DNA from: Gammaproteobacteria bacterium
Lineage (GTDB): Bacteria; Pseudomonadota; Gammaproteobacteria; Pseudomonadales; Pseudohongiellaceae
Direction: 5' to 3'
DNA: 64,000 nucleotides
NCBI GenBank assembly: GCA_030654835.1
Contig: JAURWS010000007.1
Location: 1 to 64,000 of the forward strand
Part shown: piece after piece, positions 25,862-34,701 of the stretch
Layout of the letters: every line of letters begins with the position of its first letter
How positions within the stretch are numbered: position 1 is the stretch's first letter
Program-made: the position numbers and the translations under genes
Notes under the pieces: generated by a model
The model's input: only the letters and a program-made list of their open reading frames with translations
What the model was told of the DNA's origin: nothing
Databases searched by the model: none

Positions 25862-26983
25862 ATGTCAGTGCAATTCTCCAAGGGCCTCGAAGACGTCATC
25901 GCAGATCAGACCAGTATCAGTAATGTTGAAGGCGATCTGGGCCGTCTCAGTTATCGTGGCTATACCATCGAACAACTCGTCACTCTCAGCTTCACCCGCG
26001 TCGTATGGCTGGTACTGTTCGGAGAGCTGGCAACTTCGGAACAAGAACAGCAACTGGAAAAATTCCTGCAGGCCAATGGCGAACTGAGTGGCAGTGAACT
26101 GAACATTCTCGCCGCCCTGCCACGCCAGTTGCACACCATGCGCATGCTGCAGTCCATGATTCCGGTGCTCGATACCACGCCGAAGGGCCCACAGGAACTG
26201 CCCTTCGCCAACAAAGAAGGGTACCGAGGGCTGGCTGTTGTGGCCAAAATCCCAACCCTGCTGGCCTCTTTCCGTCGTCTGCAACTGAACGACAAGCTGC
26301 CGGTGTTCAACGCCAGCAAGCCATACCTGAATAACTTCCTGTCCATGTTCCACTCCAAGGACGCCTCTGCTGAGCACGTCCGCTGTCTGGAAATGCTGCA
26401 GATTCTGCAGCTGGAGCACAGCTTCAACGCCGGTACGTTCACCCTGCGCGTCGCGGCCAGCACACTGTCACCCGTGGAATCCGCGCTCTCCTCTGCCGTC
26501 GGTTCCCTGTATGGCACGCTGCATGGCGGTGCCGATGAAGCCGCACTGAACGAAGCCATCAAGGTCGGCACCCCGGCCAATGCCAGAGCGTATGTGGTGG
26601 ACCTGCTGGCCAACAAGGGCCGTCTGATGGGCATGGGCCATCGTGAATATACCAAGCTGGATCCCCGCGCCGCGATCCTCAAGCCGATGGCAGAGAAGCT
26701 CTGCAAAGGCACCGACTTCGAGAATGTATTCCTGACACTCAAGGAGATCGAGAAGGAGTTCAACGCCGAGATGCAGAAGAAGGGCAAGGAAGTCTGGGCC
26801 AATCTCGAGTTCTACAAGGGCCCCGTGAATCTCGCTATCGGCATCCCCGCGACCTACTTCACGGCGGGTTTCGCCATGGCTCGCAGCGTGGGCTGGCTGG
26901 CACACTTCCTCGAATCCCGTCTGGACAACAAGATCATGCGTCCAAGCGCGCTCTACATCGGCCCCGCCATCCGCTCACTCTGA
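25862..26983 (+). CDS. Citrate/2-methylcitrate synthase homologue with Asp-to-Glu active site
   Basis: A 373-residue type I citrate-synthase-fold protein, the size of the short bacterial and archaeal forms. It keeps LSYRGYTIEQL, the His region LEHSFNAGTFTLRVAAST, the catalytic His of GTLHGGADEAALNE, and GMGHREYTKLDPRA. The conserved catalytic Asp region, NVDFYS in E. coli-type enzymes and NLDFYS in PrpC, is NLEFYKG here, so Asp is Glu. The C-terminal GWLAHFLESR and RPSALYIGP are normal. Activity may be retained at a different rate or the substrate may differ. There are no prp genes nearby. A divergent LysR gene and a LysR-type box suggest conditional expression rather than housekeeping. Confidence 0.9.
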   Translation: MSVQFSKGLEDVIADQTSISNVEGDLGRLSYRGYTIEQLVTLSFTRVVWLVLFGELATSEQEQQLEKFLQANGELSGSELNILAALPRQLHTMRMLQSMIPVLDTTPKGPQELPFANKEGYRGLAVVAKIPTLLASFRRLQLNDKLPVFNASKPYLNNFLSMFHSKDASAEHVRCLEMLQILQLEHSFNAGTFTLRVAASTLSPVESALSSAVGSLYGTLHGGADEAALNEAIKVGTPANARAYVVDLLANKGRLMGMGHREYTKLDPRAAILKPMAEKLCKGTDFENVFLTLKEIEKEFNAEMQKKGKEVWANLEFYKGPVNLAIGIPATYFTAGFAMARSVGWLAHFLESRLDNKIMRPSALYIGPAIRSL

Positions 26984-27024: not shown

Positions 27025-27119
27025 CCAGTGTTCCCAACCGCAGACCGTCTGGCTATACTCGCGCCCATCCTTTCCGCATTGCCTGTATAGCGGGAACCCA
27101 ATCAGGAAGCGCGCACACC

Positions 27120-27488
27120 ATGGCCAATATCTTCATCGCCGACGATGACCAGCTGGTGATCGACCTGATCAGCTTTCGTCTGCAGCGCCGTGGTCACACC
27201 GTCAGCGGGGCCACCGACGGCGAGCTGGCACTGGAGGCCATTCTCCACCAGCCCCCCGATCTCATCATCCTCGACTACGTGATGCCCGTCCTCAATGGCC
27301 CCGACATCATTGCCGCACTCAAGGCCGAGTCCGCTACTGCAAACATCCCCGTGCTGATCCTGGCGGCACAGTGGCGCGAGCGGGACGTCATGGAGGCTCT
27401 CGATCTCGGCGTTACCGATTACATGACCAAACCGTTCTCCCCCGAAGAACTCATATTCCGCGTCGAACGAGCCTTGAAAATCCGATGA
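27120..27488 (+). CDS. Single-domain response regulator receiver
   Basis: A 122-residue receiver domain with no output domain. It has the acidic pocket IADDDQ at residues 6-9, the phospho-acceptor Asp in LIILDYVMPVLNG, and Lys in DYMTKPFSPEEL. The Thr/Ser that normally ends strand four (as in LTA) is Ala here (LILAAQW), so the standard switch after phosphorylation is altered. The last codons overlap the start of the next gene (ATGA at 27485-27488). It is the first gene of the polysaccharide locus, so it probably regulates synthesis or export by protein contact. The kinase is not in the window. Confidence 0.9.
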   Translation: MANIFIADDDQLVIDLISFRLQRRGHTVSGATDGELALEAILHQPPDLIILDYVMPVLNGPDIIAALKAESATANIPVLILAAQWRERDVMEALDLGVTDYMTKPFSPEELIFRVERALKIR

Positions 27489-28849
27489 ATACAGTGCGTC
27501 GCAATGCCCTGTCCTGCCGTCCCTTCCTGCTGTGCGTCGTCATCAGTGGCGCTCTGGCTCTGGGATGCAGCACTGCCATGGCCCAGAGCGTCGATTATGA
27601 CTCCCTGCTGCAAACGGCAATCGGCCAGCGCAATGCCGGCAACATGCCAGCGGCGGAGCAGACCTTTCGACAAGCCTGGGAAATTGCCGACAACAAAAGC
27701 GAGGCCGCCTATCTTCTGGCGCTGGTGATTGCGTTTCAGGACCGCTATGAGGAAGCCATTACTCTGCTGGATGCCACGCTGATCGACTATCCGCAGGACA
27801 CCAACCTGCTGCTGGCCAAAGCTCGGGTGCGCTCCTATCAAGGCCTCCTGCAGGAGGCTGGTGATCTAGCAGAGAGAATTCTCGCGGCGCAGCCGCAGAA
27901 CCAGGAGGCTCGCAATCTGACAGCACGGATCGCGCTCTATCAGCGTCGACCCGCCTACGCCAAGATGCTGCTTGAAGACGTCCTCGCCAGCTCACCGAAT
28001 GATCTGGAAGCCCTCACCGGGCTTTACGATGCCGAATTGGCACTGGGCAACAATGAACAGGCGAGCACCGTGCTGGCGCGTGCCGCCAGCGTTTCACCCA
28101 CGCACATCGATGTCCTCAGCCGCCAAGGTGCCGCCGCTCAACCCGGCATCCCCATGCATGCCTGGATCACCGGCTTTGAACGCAGCCGCACCGACGGTTT
28201 CAGCTCGCACTGGAACGATCGCTTCCTTGAATACCGGCATCGTTACAACCTGCGCACCGAGCAGTCTCTGCGCATCAGCCACAACCACCGTTTCGGAGAA
28301 CACGACACTTCCATCGAGTCCAGCCTGTTGCTGTGGCAACAGAGTTCCACACCGCTGGAACTGACTCTGGGCGCGACCCCGGATGCCGATTTTTCCGCTA
28401 CCCGCAGCGCACGCGCCGCCATCAGCACGCGACTGAGTGAGGGCAACGACCGGATCGGCAGCACCGTGATGAGTGCCAGCGCGCAGGGAGCCCGCTACCG
28501 CACCGGCAACATCGCGCGGCTGGGCTTCGATCTGGAACATTACCTGCGCAACACCGACGCCTGGTTCACGCTGGGCGCAGGCATGGTGCGCGATGAAAAC
28601 AAGACCAACATCGGTGGCTGGCGCCTGGGAGCCAACTGGCAATCCACTGCCAATCTGCGCGTCGGCATAGGCTACAGCGAGGGTGCGGAGACGGAGAATG
28701 GGATCACCAGCGACACCAGCAGCACCAGTGGTTACATCACCTATCGCCTCGGCACCAGCTGGCAGATGCAACTGAACCTGAGTCAGAGTCGGCGCGAGAA
28801 TTCCTATACGCGGGATAGCACCGCCCTCACACTGCAATACCGATACTAG
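27485..28849 (+). CDS. TPR plus YaiO-family outer-membrane beta-barrel protein
   Basis: A 454-residue exported protein. The leader MNTVRRNALSC to CSTAMAQS (cleavage after about residue 34) is clear. Residues about 38-220 form TPR-like helical pairs (YEEAITLLDATLIDYPQDT, KMLLEDVLASSPNDLEAL, NEQASTVLARAASVSPT). The last 220 residues are alternating amphipathic strands ending in an aromatic residue (TALTLQYRY), as expected for a C-terminal beta-barrel of the YaiO/PgaA-like type. This TPR-plus-barrel layout is that of export porins for synthase-dependent polysaccharides. The start at 27485 overlaps the receiver gene by four bases. Confidence 0.85.
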   Translation: MNTVRRNALSCRPFLLCVVISGALALGCSTAMAQSVDYDSLLQTAIGQRNAGNMPAAEQTFRQAWEIADNKSEAAYLLALVIAFQDRYEEAITLLDATLIDYPQDTNLLLAKARVRSYQGLLQEAGDLAERILAAQPQNQEARNLTARIALYQRRPAYAKMLLEDVLASSPNDLEALTGLYDAELALGNNEQASTVLARAASVSPTHIDVLSRQGAAAQPGIPMHAWITGFERSRTDGFSSHWNDRFLEYRHRYNLRTEQSLRISHNHRFGEHDTSIESSLLLWQQSSTPLELTLGATPDADFSATRSARAAISTRLSEGNDRIGSTVMSASAQGARYRTGNIARLGFDLEHYLRNTDAWFTLGAGMVRDENKTNIGGWRLGANWQSTANLRVGIGYSEGAETENGITSDTSSTSGYITYRLGTSWQMQLNLSQSRRENSYTRDSTALTLQYRY

Positions 28850-28883
28850 CGGCCGCGACCGGACGAATAGAGAGAGCAGGTAC

Positions 28884-30020
28884 ATGAATCTACTGCAGTT
28901 CATCTGGTGGACGAGCCTCGTGCTGGCCCTGTCCTCCCTGATGGTCATGGTGGTGTTGGTGCTCAGGCGCATGCGCGATGAGCGACGCGCCCGCCAGGAG
29001 CAGCATGTCCGCAGCGTCATCCAGAAGATTCTATTCAACTATATGGATTCCGACTGGATGAGTGGCCAGAAGGATCTGAACAACCTGATGAACATGAATC
29101 GAGCGGCACAACACGTCCTGCGTAAACTGACCATCGATCTGTGTCACCTCATCCAGGGCCAGGAACGCCAGCAGCTGACCTCGTTGCTCACCCGCTCCGG
29201 CTTCCGCAACGAGTGTGTGCGAGATCTGCGCAGCAGGATCGTCGAGGACCGCCGCTCCGCCGCCAGTGCGTTGCAGCTGTTCAGCGATACCACCACCGAG
29301 CAGGCCCTGCTGGCGGCATTGGACGACGACGATGGACACGTCCGGCTCGCGGCGGCCAGCTCTTTGAAGATGATCAATGCCCTGCCCGATCTGCGGATAC
29401 TGATCAGCAAACTGGAAGAGAAAGATGTACTCGCCTCACGAGACGTCAGAACGCTGTTCCGGGACATGGCGCGCCGCAAACCGCTTGCCCTCAGGCAATT
29501 GGCGGCTGACTCCGGCAACGACACACAGCTGAAGATTGTGCTCGCCGATGCGATGTCGGAAACGAGCGATTTCCGCGTGCTGGAAGATCTGTATCGCTTC
29601 GCCAGCGACGACGATCTGGACGTTCGCACTACGGCACTGCGCTCGCTGGGCGCCCTGCAGCATCCGGACGCTTCAGCGGTGGTGGAGCACTCGCTGAGCG
29701 ATGCGCAGTGGCAGGTCCGGGCGGTCGCGGCCGGTGCCGCCGGACAGATAGGACTGGAGTATCTCGTCCCGCAGCTGACCAGACTGCTCGATGACGACAG
29801 CTGGTGGGTGCGCTTTCGCAGCGCCGAGGCGCTCTCGGATCTCGGGGCGACCGGCCAGCAGGCGCTACGGGAGCGCGCCGCGACCATCAACAGCGTCAAT
29901 GACAACGCGGGAGGACGCATGGCCGCCCTGGTGCTCGACGAACATGGTCTCCACGAACTGGTGCCTTTCGCCGATGCGGATCAGGCTGCGTCTGTCAGCC
30001 AGGGGCCCATTCATGCTTGA
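28884..30020 (+). CDS. Membrane-anchored HEAT-repeat protein
   Basis: A 378-residue protein. A single N-terminal membrane helix (residues 8-27, VLALSSLMVMVVLVL) is followed by a basic stretch and a cytoplasmic or periplasmic helical domain. HEAT/PBS-type repeats run from about residue 125: EQALLAALDDDDGHVRLAAA, FASDDDLDVRTTALRSLGAL, HSLSDAQWQVRAVAAGAAGQ, RLLDDDSWWVRFRSAEALSD. Such repeats make protein-contact scaffolds. It sits between the beta-barrel and glycosyltransferase genes, and its stop overlaps the glycosyltransferase start by eight bases. I infer that it is the link of the inner-membrane synthase to regulators or to the outer-membrane porin. Confidence 0.85.
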   Translation: MNLLQFIWWTSLVLALSSLMVMVVLVLRRMRDERRARQEQHVRSVIQKILFNYMDSDWMSGQKDLNNLMNMNRAAQHVLRKLTIDLCHLIQGQERQQLTSLLTRSGFRNECVRDLRSRIVEDRRSAASALQLFSDTTTEQALLAALDDDDGHVRLAAASSLKMINALPDLRILISKLEEKDVLASRDVRTLFRDMARRKPLALRQLAADSGNDTQLKIVLADAMSETSDFRVLEDLYRFASDDDLDVRTTALRSLGALQHPDASAVVEHSLSDAQWQVRAVAAGAAGQIGLEYLVPQLTRLLDDDSWWVRFRSAEALSDLGATGQQALRERAATINSVNDNAGGRMAALVLDEHGLHELVPFADADQAASVSQGPIHA

Positions 30021-31449
30021 GCAACTCGCTGTGAGGATCGTACAGTGGCTCGACACCAGCGCCGAGTGGGTCGTGGGTCTCGTCATCGTAGTCGGCGTCA
30101 CGCAGAACGTCATCTCCTTGATCCAACTGCTGGTGGCAACCCATGCCATGCGCCGCAGGAGCGAGACCGAGAACAGCGAAACCCTCTGGCAACAGCGCGC
30201 CCCCAGCGCGCCACCCATCTCCATGATCGCACCGGCATACAACGAATCTGCCAGTATCGTGGAGAGCACCCGCTCCATGCTCAGCATCCGCTATCCGCAT
30301 TGCGAAGTGCTGATCGTCAACGATGGTTCCAAGGATGACACGCTGCAGAAGCTGATCGACAACTTCGCCCTGCGCCCGAGCGCCAGAGACTTCGAGATCA
30401 TCACGCCCCACAAGCCGATCCGGCAGATCTACCAGTCGCGCAAGTATCCCAGCCTGATCGTCATCGACAAGGAGAACGGCGGCAAGGCGGACGCTCTCAA
30501 CGCTGGCATCAACATCTGTCGTTCGCCGCTGTTCTGTTCGGTGGACGCGGATTCGATGCTGGAAGCCGACGCCCTGCTGCATGCGGTACAACCTTTTCTG
30601 AGCAAGCCCGACACGGTGATCGCGGTCGGGGGCACCATCCGCGTGGCCAACGGCTGTCGCGTGCGCGGTGGCAAGGTCGTCAGCGTCGGGCTGCCGCGCG
30701 ATCTGCTGCCGATGCTGCAGACCGTGGAGTACACCCGCGCCTTCCTGATCGCCCGCGTCGCCATGAGTGAGCTGGGGGTGCTGACGATGATCTCCGGCGC
30801 CTTCGGCATCTTCAGCCGCCCGGCGGCAATCGCAGTGGGCGGCTACGACACCAACACGGTAGGCGAGGACTACGAGCTGGTGATGCGCATGCATCGCTAT
30901 CATCAGGAACAGCGCATTCCCTATGAGATCGTCACGGTGGCCGAACCGGTGTGCTGGACCGAGGCACCCAATACCCTGCGGGTGTTGTCGCGTCAGCGCA
31001 AACGCTGGCAGCGCGGTTCTCTGGAGACTTTCTTCCGGCATATACGCATGCTTGGCAATCCACGCTATGGTCGGATCGGCATGATCGCCATGCCGTTTTC
31101 CCTGCTGGTGGATGTGCTGGGCCCACCTGTGGAAGTGCTCGGCTGTATGCTGGTGCCGGTGTTGTGGATATCCGGACTACTTAACCCGGATTTCGCGCTG
31201 GCCTTCCTCGCGCTCACCTTCGTGTTCGGCGTCTTCATCAGTGCGGGATCGCTGGCACTGGAAGAAATTTCCTTGCATCGCATTCCCAAGGCCAAAGATC
31301 TGCTGCGGCTCATTTTCGGCATCTTCATCGAGAATTTCGGTTACCGACAATTGAACAATATCTGGCGCATCCAGGGTTGGTGGGAATTTCTGCGCAAGAA
31401 GAAGAGCTGGGGCGAGATGACTCGCACCGGTTTCCAATCCTCGCGCTGA
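30013..31449 (+). CDS. Processive family 2 glycosyltransferase (polysaccharide synthase-like)
   Basis: A 478-residue inner-membrane GT2. One helix (residues about 17-42) precedes the catalytic domain. Motifs: SMIAPAYNESASIV (nucleotide binding), LIVNDGSKDDTL, the DxD-like SVDADSMLEADAL, VGEDYELVMRMH (catalytic base Asp), and QRKRWQRG (QxxRW), together the signature of BcsA/PgaC-type synthases. Three or four helices follow from about residue 345. There is no PilZ or other c-di-GMP domain. Start at 30013, overlapping the HEAT gene. With the upstream TPR/beta-barrel protein it resembles the NfrA/NfrB, PgaA/PgaC and YaiO/YaiP pairs. The sugar is unknown. Confidence 0.9.
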   Translation: MLEQLAVRIVQWLDTSAEWVVGLVIVVGVTQNVISLIQLLVATHAMRRRSETENSETLWQQRAPSAPPISMIAPAYNESASIVESTRSMLSIRYPHCEVLIVNDGSKDDTLQKLIDNFALRPSARDFEIITPHKPIRQIYQSRKYPSLIVIDKENGGKADALNAGINICRSPLFCSVDADSMLEADALLHAVQPFLSKPDTVIAVGGTIRVANGCRVRGGKVVSVGLPRDLLPMLQTVEYTRAFLIARVAMSELGVLTMISGAFGIFSRPAAIAVGGYDTNTVGEDYELVMRMHRYHQEQRIPYEIVTVAEPVCWTEAPNTLRVLSRQRKRWQRGSLETFFRHIRMLGNPRYGRIGMIAMPFSLLVDVLGPPVEVLGCMLVPVLWISGLLNPDFALAFLALTFVFGVFISAGSLALEEISLHRIPKAKDLLRLIFGIFIENFGYRQLNNIWRIQGWWEFLRKKKSWGEMTRTGFQSSR

Positions 31450-33939: not shown

Positions 33940-34701
33940 ATGGGATCAATGCACACGCTCAACAGAACATCAGGGTGGCTGGCTGTCGCACTCGGGATGA
34001 TTCTTGGTGGTCTGGGCGGAGTGGAAAGCGCCGTCGCACAAAGCGCCAGTTCCGCAGCCGCAGACAGCATCAGCCGTTACGGTAATCTCAATGTCGAGCG
34101 CAGCAGTGGCGTTATTGACCCCGAGCTGGGTCAAAAGCACTACAGACGCGGCAATACCTACAACAACCTGAAGCGCTTCGACGAAGCCATTGCCGAGTAT
34201 CAACTCGCCATTACGGCCGACCCCACCTTCGCCGACTCTTACCGTCAGCTGGCCAACATCTTCTATTTTCAGGAGCGGTTCGACGACGCCATTCCCATGC
34301 TGGCACGCTTCATCGATCATCAAAGGGAGGTAACGGCAGGATTGATCGCGTCGCTGAACACCCTGGGGCAGTTGCTGCGGGATGCCCAGCGCTTCGATGA
34401 GGCCATCGAGATAGACCTGCGCGCCATCGAGAATGACGCGGGGAATGCTTCTCAGATCTACGTGATGGGCAACACCTACGCCAATGCTGGACGCACTGCC
34501 GAGGCCATTCGTGTGTACGAGAAGGCACTGACCGTGGCGCCACCCGATGCCTTCGTGCACAGAACGCTGGGCAGACTGTTGGAGCAGGAGCAGCGCCTCG
34601 AAGAGGCGCTCGCCCAGTATCGCGCAGCGGCCGCCATCGACCCCGCCTCCCAGTTCTACAAGGACCTCATCACAGGACTTGAGGCCCGATTGGCCCGCTA
34701 A
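33940..34701 (+). CDS. Exported TPR-repeat protein
   Basis: About 253 residues. A leader (LNRTSGWLAVALGMILGGLG to AVAQSAS) suggests export to the periplasm. After a polar stretch, TPR units run from about residue 65 to the end: HYRRGNTYNNLKRFDEAIAE, DSYRQLANIFYFQERFDDAI, LNTLGQLLRDAQRFDEAIEI, VMGNTYANAGRTAEAIRVYE and VHRTLGRLLEQEQRLEEALA. Starts at 33940 and 33949 are both possible; GGAGA at 33936-33940 fits the second well. TPRs bind partner proteins; the partner here is unknown. A REP element directly follows. Confidence 0.82.
   Translation: MGSMHTLNRTSGWLAVALGMILGGLGGVESAVAQSASSAAADSISRYGNLNVERSSGVIDPELGQKHYRRGNTYNNLKRFDEAIAEYQLAITADPTFADSYRQLANIFYFQERFDDAIPMLARFIDHQREVTAGLIASLNTLGQLLRDAQRFDEAIEIDLRAIENDAGNASQIYVMGNTYANAGRTAEAIRVYEKALTVAPPDAFVHRTLGRLLEQEQRLEEALAQYRAAAAIDPASQFYKDLITGLEARLAR

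Follow-up and report, generated by a model that had tools for sequence, protein, structure and literature searches.

What do four adjoining genes for a receiver, an outer-membrane barrel protein, a HEAT-repeat protein and a membrane glycosyltransferase make together, and is their company a local accident? The question is raised by positions 27120-31449 of a 64,000-nucleotide stretch of DNA (positions 1 to 64,000 of contig JAURWS010000007.1, assembly GCA_030654835.1, from a gammaproteobacterium of the Pseudohongiellaceae; hereafter the window). Here open reading frames (ORFs) and profile searches place, in this order, genes for a response-regulator receiver (REC), a protein joining tetratricopeptide repeats to a beta-barrel (TPR-barrel), a HEAT-repeat protein and a family 2 glycosyltransferase (GT2). 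A sequence-only reading of the window had proposed that they form a shared machine for polysaccharide synthesis and export, and the conserved neighbourhood and the confident barrel model reported below bear this out. We consider it probable that the locus encodes a putative signal-gated, synthase-dependent polysaccharide secretion machine, with a REC-HEAT-GT2 core to which diderms add an exporter.

Conservation and distribution of the gene neighbourhood

Eighty loci were picked by GT2 similarity alone from at least 466 GT2 relatives, giving 81 with the window, of which 68 have at least 3.5 kb upstream. A check on gene order, set beforehand, found that the neighbours are not scattered in relatives: a HEAT gene lies immediately upstream of the GT2 gene in 67 of the 68 loci, from many phyla, and in 0 of the 22 PgaC-like loci of the same order that served as controls, as counted with REC, HEAT, GT2 and barrel models built from the same loci that were later counted, loci of the window's class included. 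A REC on the same strand and at most 3.4 kb from the GT2 is found in 64/68 loci on either side, and upstream in 62/68; these counts, like the residue counts given below, hold with a clean 123-position receiver model. With that model no REC was found in the 22 controls either, which were viewed with flanks of about 1-1.5 kb and include two (L139 and L152) where no distinct gene ahead of the GT2 can be seen, owing to the contig end or to the GT2 frame itself. The gene orders among the 68 loci are REC-HEAT-GT2 (33), REC-barrel-HEAT-GT2 (23), REC-HEAT-GT2-barrel (3), HEAT-GT2-REC (3), HEAT-GT2 (3), barrel-REC-HEAT-GT2 (2) and GT2 alone (1). The last is L075, where REC and HEAT stand together some 6 kb upstream of the GT2. 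That the parts cooperate is well supported.

Surveys by class, in which the best-scoring loci were examined (up to 30 per survey), found HEAT in 30/30 loci each of Halobacteria, Bacilli and Bacteroidia, 27/30 of Clostridia and 16/17 of the window's class; at least one locus each of Halobacteria, Clostridia, Bacilli and Bacteroidia comes from an already used genome (L192, L159, L221 and L246). The misses are L173, where a contig end falls inside the gene, and L183, L184 and L124. Within the short survey flanks, the clean receiver model detected REC in all 30 loci of Bacilli and in 21 of 30 of Halobacteria. RefSeq annotation of Haloarcula and Salinirubellus likewise lists a response regulator, a HEAT repeat protein and a GT2, overlapping or almost abutting.

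The TPR-barrel went undetected in the survey loci of Bacilli, Clostridia and Halobacteria, and 33 of the 68 loci carry REC-HEAT-GT2 with no same-strand barrel nearby, on which ground we reject the four genes as the natural unit. Of the four-gene system first proposed, the shared machine stands; REC-HEAT-GT2 forms its core, with an outer-membrane TPR-barrel that can be exchanged.

GT2 matches occur at 1e-40 in 18 of 369 genomes of the window's class and, among sampled genomes, at 1e-80 in 85/299 Bacilli, 31/194 Halobacteria, 31/247 Bacteroidia and 30/291 Clostridia, a few of the family-level matches being low-scoring and without HEAT. The REC-HEAT-GT2 cassette is a widespread family and no local curiosity; being common, it could explain surface polymer in many organisms, archaea included. 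One sampled contig (L055), labelled as a Klebsiella pneumoniae metagenome-assembled genome, pairs with Opitutaceae (Verrucomicrobiota) in the GT2 tree with a support of 94, and perhaps belongs to a mislabelled bin.

The synthase

The D, DxD, ED and QxxRW motifs expected of the membrane GT2 of synthase-dependent systems are all present in the window enzyme. Residues D104, D178, D180, E285, D286, Q328, R331, W332, W466 and R471 are the same in all 47 aligned members, and G467 is kept in 46. The AlphaFold2 (AF2) model is confident (predicted local distance difference test, pLDDT, 91.2; predicted template-modelling score, pTM, 0.90), and Foldseek ranks hyaluronan synthases best against it. VIA-align matches the hyaluronan synthase 8snc at Z 28.8 over 390 residues and BcsA 9fmz at Z 24.9 over 366, in alignments that run from residue 9-19 of the model to 478, membrane helices included. 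The sequence-only reading had called the enzyme a processive GT2 with synthase motifs, a call with which the invariant residues and these fold matches agree. Excerpts of PMC11750622 describe a WGTR(G) gating loop of hyaluronan synthases that enters the active site and is required for activity; we infer, by analogy, that the C-terminal WG..R of the window GT2 is the equivalent motif.

By its profile scores this GT2 subfamily is distinct from PgaC. Against TIGR03937 (PgaC/IcaA) the window enzyme reaches 138.6 bits, far from the curated cut-off of 422.3, and we reject its membership there. The family GT2 model gives plasmid-borne members 483-675 bits (n=7) and members with HEAT mostly at least 480, as compared with 63-229 bits for the PgaC-like controls (n=22; the highest is L152) and 139.8, 64.6 and 15.8 bits for PgaC, YaiP and NfrB of E. 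coli. The spacing from the NDGS to the NGGK motif is about 52 residues (51-54) in 81 of 86 GT2 members, the motif not being found in the other five; it is 28 and 31 in the two controls, of six, in which both motifs were found, and 29 in E. coli PgaC.

The highest VIA-align score nonetheless belongs to PcManGT, an archaeal mannosyltransferase (Z 31.7 over 335 residues), so that the fold alone is no proof of polymerisation. Minimal mannosyltransferases with the cellulose-synthase fold add single sugars to lipid acceptors. The window GT2 might similarly attach single sugars to a lipid acceptor, such as a glycan linked to polyprenol, with REC-HEAT controlling surface glycosylation or a glycolipid and the barrel unrelated to the export of this product; the occurrence of the system in haloarchaea, where protein glycosylation is common, would suit such a role. 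We hold this to be unlikely, given that neither QxxRW nor the W and R of the C-terminal WG..R vary among the aligned members, that the hyaluronan synthase and BcsA alignments take in the membrane part, and that BcsC/PelB-like TPR-barrel exporters, a deacetylase gene and a fused sulfatase domain occur with the system. Polymer synthesis is the likely activity of the GT2.

The HEAT protein and the receiver

The HEAT-repeat protein is, as the sequence-only reading had it, anchored: a single N-terminal transmembrane segment precedes the HEAT solenoid (Table 1), and an N-terminal hydrophobic stretch recurs in 76 of 78 HEAT proteins (window counted). Lys and Arg are more numerous after this stretch in 70 of the 78 proteins and before it in four. 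Because this excess follows the stretch, a cytoplasmic location is predicted for the solenoid, which would be anchored in the inner membrane. In two clostridial genomes HEAT and GT2 share one open frame (L102, 980 amino acids, aa; L161, 962 aa), with hydrophobic segments, assigned by eye, both ahead of HEAT and between HEAT and GT2. This arrangement is consistent with HEAT and the GT2 catalytic domain lying on the same side of the membrane. Physical linkage of HEAT and GT2 is well supported in these two natural fusions. It had been suggested earlier that HEAT links synthase and regulator; the fusions back the attachment to the synthase, and the step from REC to HEAT is one that we infer.

The window REC keeps the phosphoacceptor D52 and K104 in a chain of 122 aa without an output domain, which fits a single-domain response regulator. 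K104 is kept in 68 of the 69 adjacent REC domains (window counted), Thr or Ser at position 82 in 66, and D52 in 60. Adjacent receivers of at most 150 aa, too short for an output domain, number 45 of the 69. Of the 24 longer proteins, 19 were scanned; GGDEF was found in nine and Hpt in two. The arrangement in Mesorhizobium ciceri (genes for an ATP-binding protein, REC, REC, YaiO, HEAT and GT2, plus an Hpt gene in the opposite orientation) suggests a phosphorelay.

The GGDEF domains offer some footing to an account in which the GT2 is a PgaCD/NfrB-like synthase controlled by cyclic di-GMP (c-di-GMP), HEAT or a partner binds this messenger, and REC merely tunes a cyclase. Excerpts of PMC8669469 name c-di-GMP as a common activator of well-studied synthase-dependent systems, for example those for cellulose and PGA (poly-N-acetylglucosamine). 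Domain scans of the four window proteins, however, list no c-di-GMP domain, whether PilZ, MshEN or another, and most adjacent receivers, the 45 counted above, are single-domain. Stand-alone REC cassettes moreover occur in haloarchaea, which are not known for c-di-GMP. We regard control of this kind as very improbable.

The exporter

The barrel protein of the window scores above the cut-off of 32 bits for TIGR04390, the YaiO barrel family (Table 1), and consists of a signal peptide at the N-terminus (by eye), then TPR helices at about residues 38-218 and 14 strands at 225-453, in keeping with the exported TPR and YaiO-type barrel protein first proposed. Its AF2 model has a whole-chain mean pLDDT of 90.6 and a pTM of 0.67, which would fit two flexibly joined domains. 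Another check set beforehand concerned the barrel: the C-terminal half does model as 14 strands, and VIA-align places TodX, OmpG and FadL beside it at Z of about 18-21, while the TPR half reaches Z 20.5 at most against TPR proteins. Foldseek put BcsC (9b8h), which exports cellulose, in first place and PelB (9h80), the exporter of Pel, in fourth, both with low query TM-scores (0.37 and 0.36), and TPR stretches were the only matches in a sequence search of the PDB. By sequence family and by model, the window thus has the TPR and outer-membrane barrel expected of synthase-dependent systems in diderms. The barrel gene of the congener G011 (L021, 1692-3058) lies in two open frames, from a frameshift or an assembly error.

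Core and exporter in evolution

Within the bacterial family of the window, the trees indicate that the core moves in one piece and that the exporter is family-bound, because GT2/HEAT cores of three lineages adjoin barrels of one clade. In the GT2 trees the window, G011 and G005 group with alphaproteobacteria, G020 and G025 with Gemmatimonadota and Neomarinimicrobiota, and G007 with beta- and gammaproteobacteria; the family's six barrels form a single clade with a support of 99.8. Constraining the six GT2s to one clade was rejected (p 2.2e-6), as was the same constraint on the six HEATs (p 4e-9), in tests made after the first tree had been seen and on trees where G007 has a long branch and where the HEAT of G025 and the HEAT row of L023 are fragmentary. 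The receivers of the window and of G020 track their cores; none was found beside the core of G007. Across the 35 loci with all four genes, tree distances correlate at 0.917 for GT2-HEAT, 0.694 for GT2-barrel and 0.638 for GT2-REC, shared ancestry being part of any such correlation.

Among the 14 genomes of the window's genus, the GT2 stands beside selD in four, citrate synthase and selD are immediate neighbours in eight, and a contig end cuts the site in two. At a single site in the genus, between citrate synthase and selD, some genomes have the block and others lack it. One of the four carriers, G012, has a contig that ends inside HEAT, leaving REC and barrel out of view. In G010 a scar remains between citrate synthase and selD (L277, about 1408-1580), where 52 nt match the GT2 gene at window 31077-31128 and a further piece matches its 3' end from 31386. 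We had considered that sister species without the block point to a recent insertion; the scar, which shows loss in G010, led us to reject this.

Proposed mechanism

In our proposal, a sensor kinase encoded at another locus would phosphorylate the small receiver, which would then dock on the inner-membrane-anchored HEAT solenoid, predicted to face the cytoplasm. HEAT would sit on the GT2 and turn its activity on or off; fusions, linkage and co-divergence support the coupling, and the switch is presumed. By its fold and motifs, the GT2 would act like a hyaluronan or cellulose synthase, extending a polymer from nucleotide sugar and passing it through a membrane channel of its own. Finally, the periplasmic TPR domain and the YaiO-type barrel would carry the polymer out, a step supported by the model, by relatives and by the lack of the exporter in monoderm loci.

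Besides the mannosyltransferase match, several observations weigh against this proposal. Firstly, the receiver is the looser partner: its distances correlate less with those of the GT2 (0.64) than HEAT distances do, no REC was found near the GT2 in 4/68 loci, and among the seven plasmid loci, all with HEAT, REC occurs in five and is missing in L127 and L131. The protein ahead of HEAT is annotated as TPR in the Deinococcus plasmid locus, and in that of Planococcus it is a hypothetical protein adjoining a CotH-kinase gene; REC is therefore not universal. Secondly, the window REC lacks the switch Thr/Ser and has A82 there instead, in common with the RECs of two congeners, which could mean altered or weakened switching. 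The phosphoacceptor Asp is missing in nine of the 69 adjacent RECs (Glu in six of these). From the missing Asp and A82 together it follows that phosphorylation is not always the signal. Thirdly, no REC-HEAT fusion was seen; three lower-scoring GT2 relatives (L124, L183 and L184; 274-297 bits), between the family and the controls, are without HEAT; and beside the four window genes stands neither a modifying enzyme nor a kinase.

Some of these points would equally suit HEAT as an assembly or stability factor for the GT2, a scaffold or chaperone that carries no signal, with REC controlling something else, such as transcription via another protein. HEAT tracks the GT2 more tightly than REC does, it is missing near one locus of the 68 as against four for REC, and of the two only HEAT was seen fused to the synthase. 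Yet REC accompanies HEAT-GT2 in 64 of the 68 loci, and also in annotated archaeal plasmids, and most adjacent receivers are too short for an output domain. We find this alternative improbable.

Returning to the proposed signal-gated synthase, a broader proposition, which we hold to be evenly balanced, is that REC-HEAT-GT2 may be a general and ancient phosphorelay gating of a membrane polysaccharide synthase. HEAT would be the docking platform of a CheY-like receiver, permanently on the synthase; the device would work in diderms, monoderms and archaea, and diderms would plug in any available outer-membrane exporter. If true, this would amount to two-component, post-translational control of polymer synthesis by a receiver and a HEAT scaffold in a GT2 subfamily that is large and unnamed. 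Since cores and exporters have been swapped in nature, which parts set product and control can be tested directly.

Gene layout and associated genes

The features of the locus are collected in Table 1. Gene calls in the locus scans are plain ORFs, and the longer ORF starts at 27371 and 29791 are mechanical output of the ORF listing; the GT2 start ATG at 30013 lines up with residue 1 of the GT2 in congeners L002-L004. The REC gene shares 4 nt with TPR-barrel, TPR-barrel and HEAT are 34 nt apart, and HEAT shares 8 nt with GT2, so that the four genes and their overlapping or nearly overlapping junctions are as first read. Promoter and terminator scans of the locus region were both at chance level, the former with one match against a shuffle mean of 1.3.

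Table 1. Features of the REC, TPR-barrel, HEAT and GT2 locus (window positions)
Feature	Position	Strand	Basis or remark
REC, single-domain response-regulator receiver, 122 aa	27120..27488	+	PF00072 1.2e-24
TPR + YaiO-type outer-membrane beta-barrel protein, 454 aa	27485..28849	+	TPR_19; TIGR04390 57.3 bits
HEAT-repeat protein, membrane-anchored, 378 aa	28884..30020	+	HEAT_2 2.7e-23
GT2 synthase, processive-type membrane enzyme, 478 aa	30013..31449	+	PF00535 8.7e-19
QRKRW (QxxRW) motif of GT2, residues 328-332	30994..31008	+	
WGEMTR, C-terminal in GT2, residues 466-471	31408..31425	+	resembles hyaluronan synthase gating-loop WGTR(G)
Weak sigma-70-like match upstream of REC (TTCCCA-17-TATACT)	27031..27059	+	no better than chance

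The block is flanked by citrate synthase (25862-26983, PF00285) and a selD/NADH-dehydrogenase-like gene, the latter named by eye. Downstream of selD lies a gene for a TPR-repeat protein (33943-34698), found beside selD in all 14 genus genomes, whether or not the block is present.

Genes near the core in other genomes offer hints on the product. G007 has two same-strand genes behind the barrel, and the farther of these encodes a polysaccharide deacetylase domain (PF01522, 32.7 bits; cut-off 23.1). Further deacetylase matches, over the cut-off in L039 and slightly under it in L075, stand on the opposite strand 4-5 kb away from the GT2. Sugar-nucleotide epimerase-type genes stand beside or near the GT2 in L121, L123 and L096. 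The GT2 ORF runs to about 1140 aa in L095, L096, L082 and L086 (Chryseobacterium, Kaistella and Sphingobacterium). That of L095 (Chryseobacterium) carries a fused C-terminal sulfatase-fold domain (PF00884), which suggests a decorated polymer. In Emticicia, an annotated lipoteichoic acid (LTA) synthase lies three genes downstream of the GT2.

A family of partner proteins (283-1089 aa) occurs in the fetched flanks of 16 loci (L045, L046, L054, L061, L062, L067, L070, L072, L074, L080, L083, L084, L085, L092, L093 and L097), in several of them directly adjoining the core. By eye, some have a glycosidase-like C-terminal half, and those of L083 and L084 have sub-threshold glycosidase matches. Eight members searched against Pfam gave nothing above the curated cut-off except TPRs in one, and the PDB sequence search with the L093 protein returned no match. 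The Planococcus maritimus plasmid locus (L131, 783-8218) has genes for a polyphosphate polymerase domain, DUF4956, a CotH kinase and hypothetical proteins, then HEAT-GT2, with no REC detected.

Comparison with known systems

We found no description of the REC-HEAT-GT2 cassette in the open-access literature, subscription journals lying outside the search; in the excerpts of PMC10434189 the relevant terms stand only on separate lines of gene tables. As far as open-access literature goes, the system is apparently undescribed. The sequence-only reading had also held that the known Nfr, Pga and YaiO/YaiP systems have neither a HEAT protein nor a single-domain receiver as first gene. The corresponding stretches of E. 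coli agree: none has HEAT, and the sole REC match, in the nfr stretch, falls in CusR.

PgaABCD/IcaA resembles the present system in its GT2 with QxxRW, its TPR-barrel exporter and its deacetylase gene, which here stands behind the core in G007. It differs in that the window has no PgaD or PgaB, and in that the E. coli pga stretch shows no HEAT and, with the clean model, no REC. NfrB-NfrA-YbcH of E. coli also pairs a GT2 synthase with a TPR outer-membrane pore, NfrB being controlled by c-di-GMP and using an MshEN domain (excerpts of PMC8669469). The window GT2, by contrast, gave no MshEN match in domain scans, its chain stopping 12 residues past W466, and we reject NfrB-type membership on this ground; NfrB likewise scores low on the family GT2 model (15.8 bits). 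With YaiO/YaiP the shared part is the YaiO barrel family, TIGR04390. The differences are the 64.6 bits of YaiP on the GT2 model, a YaiO that the family barrel model does not match at E up to 10, and a stretch with neither HEAT nor REC.

There remain the hyaluronan synthases (CvHAS, XlHAS1) and BcsA, to which the window GT2 is 14-16 percent identical in the structural alignments. No HEAT or REC partner is known for either, and membership with BcsA is rejected, the domain scan of the window GT2 giving no C-terminal PilZ match. What these enzymes do have in common with it is the fold over the whole chain (Z 28.8 and 24.9), the QxxRW motif and a C-terminal WG..R like that of the gating loop.

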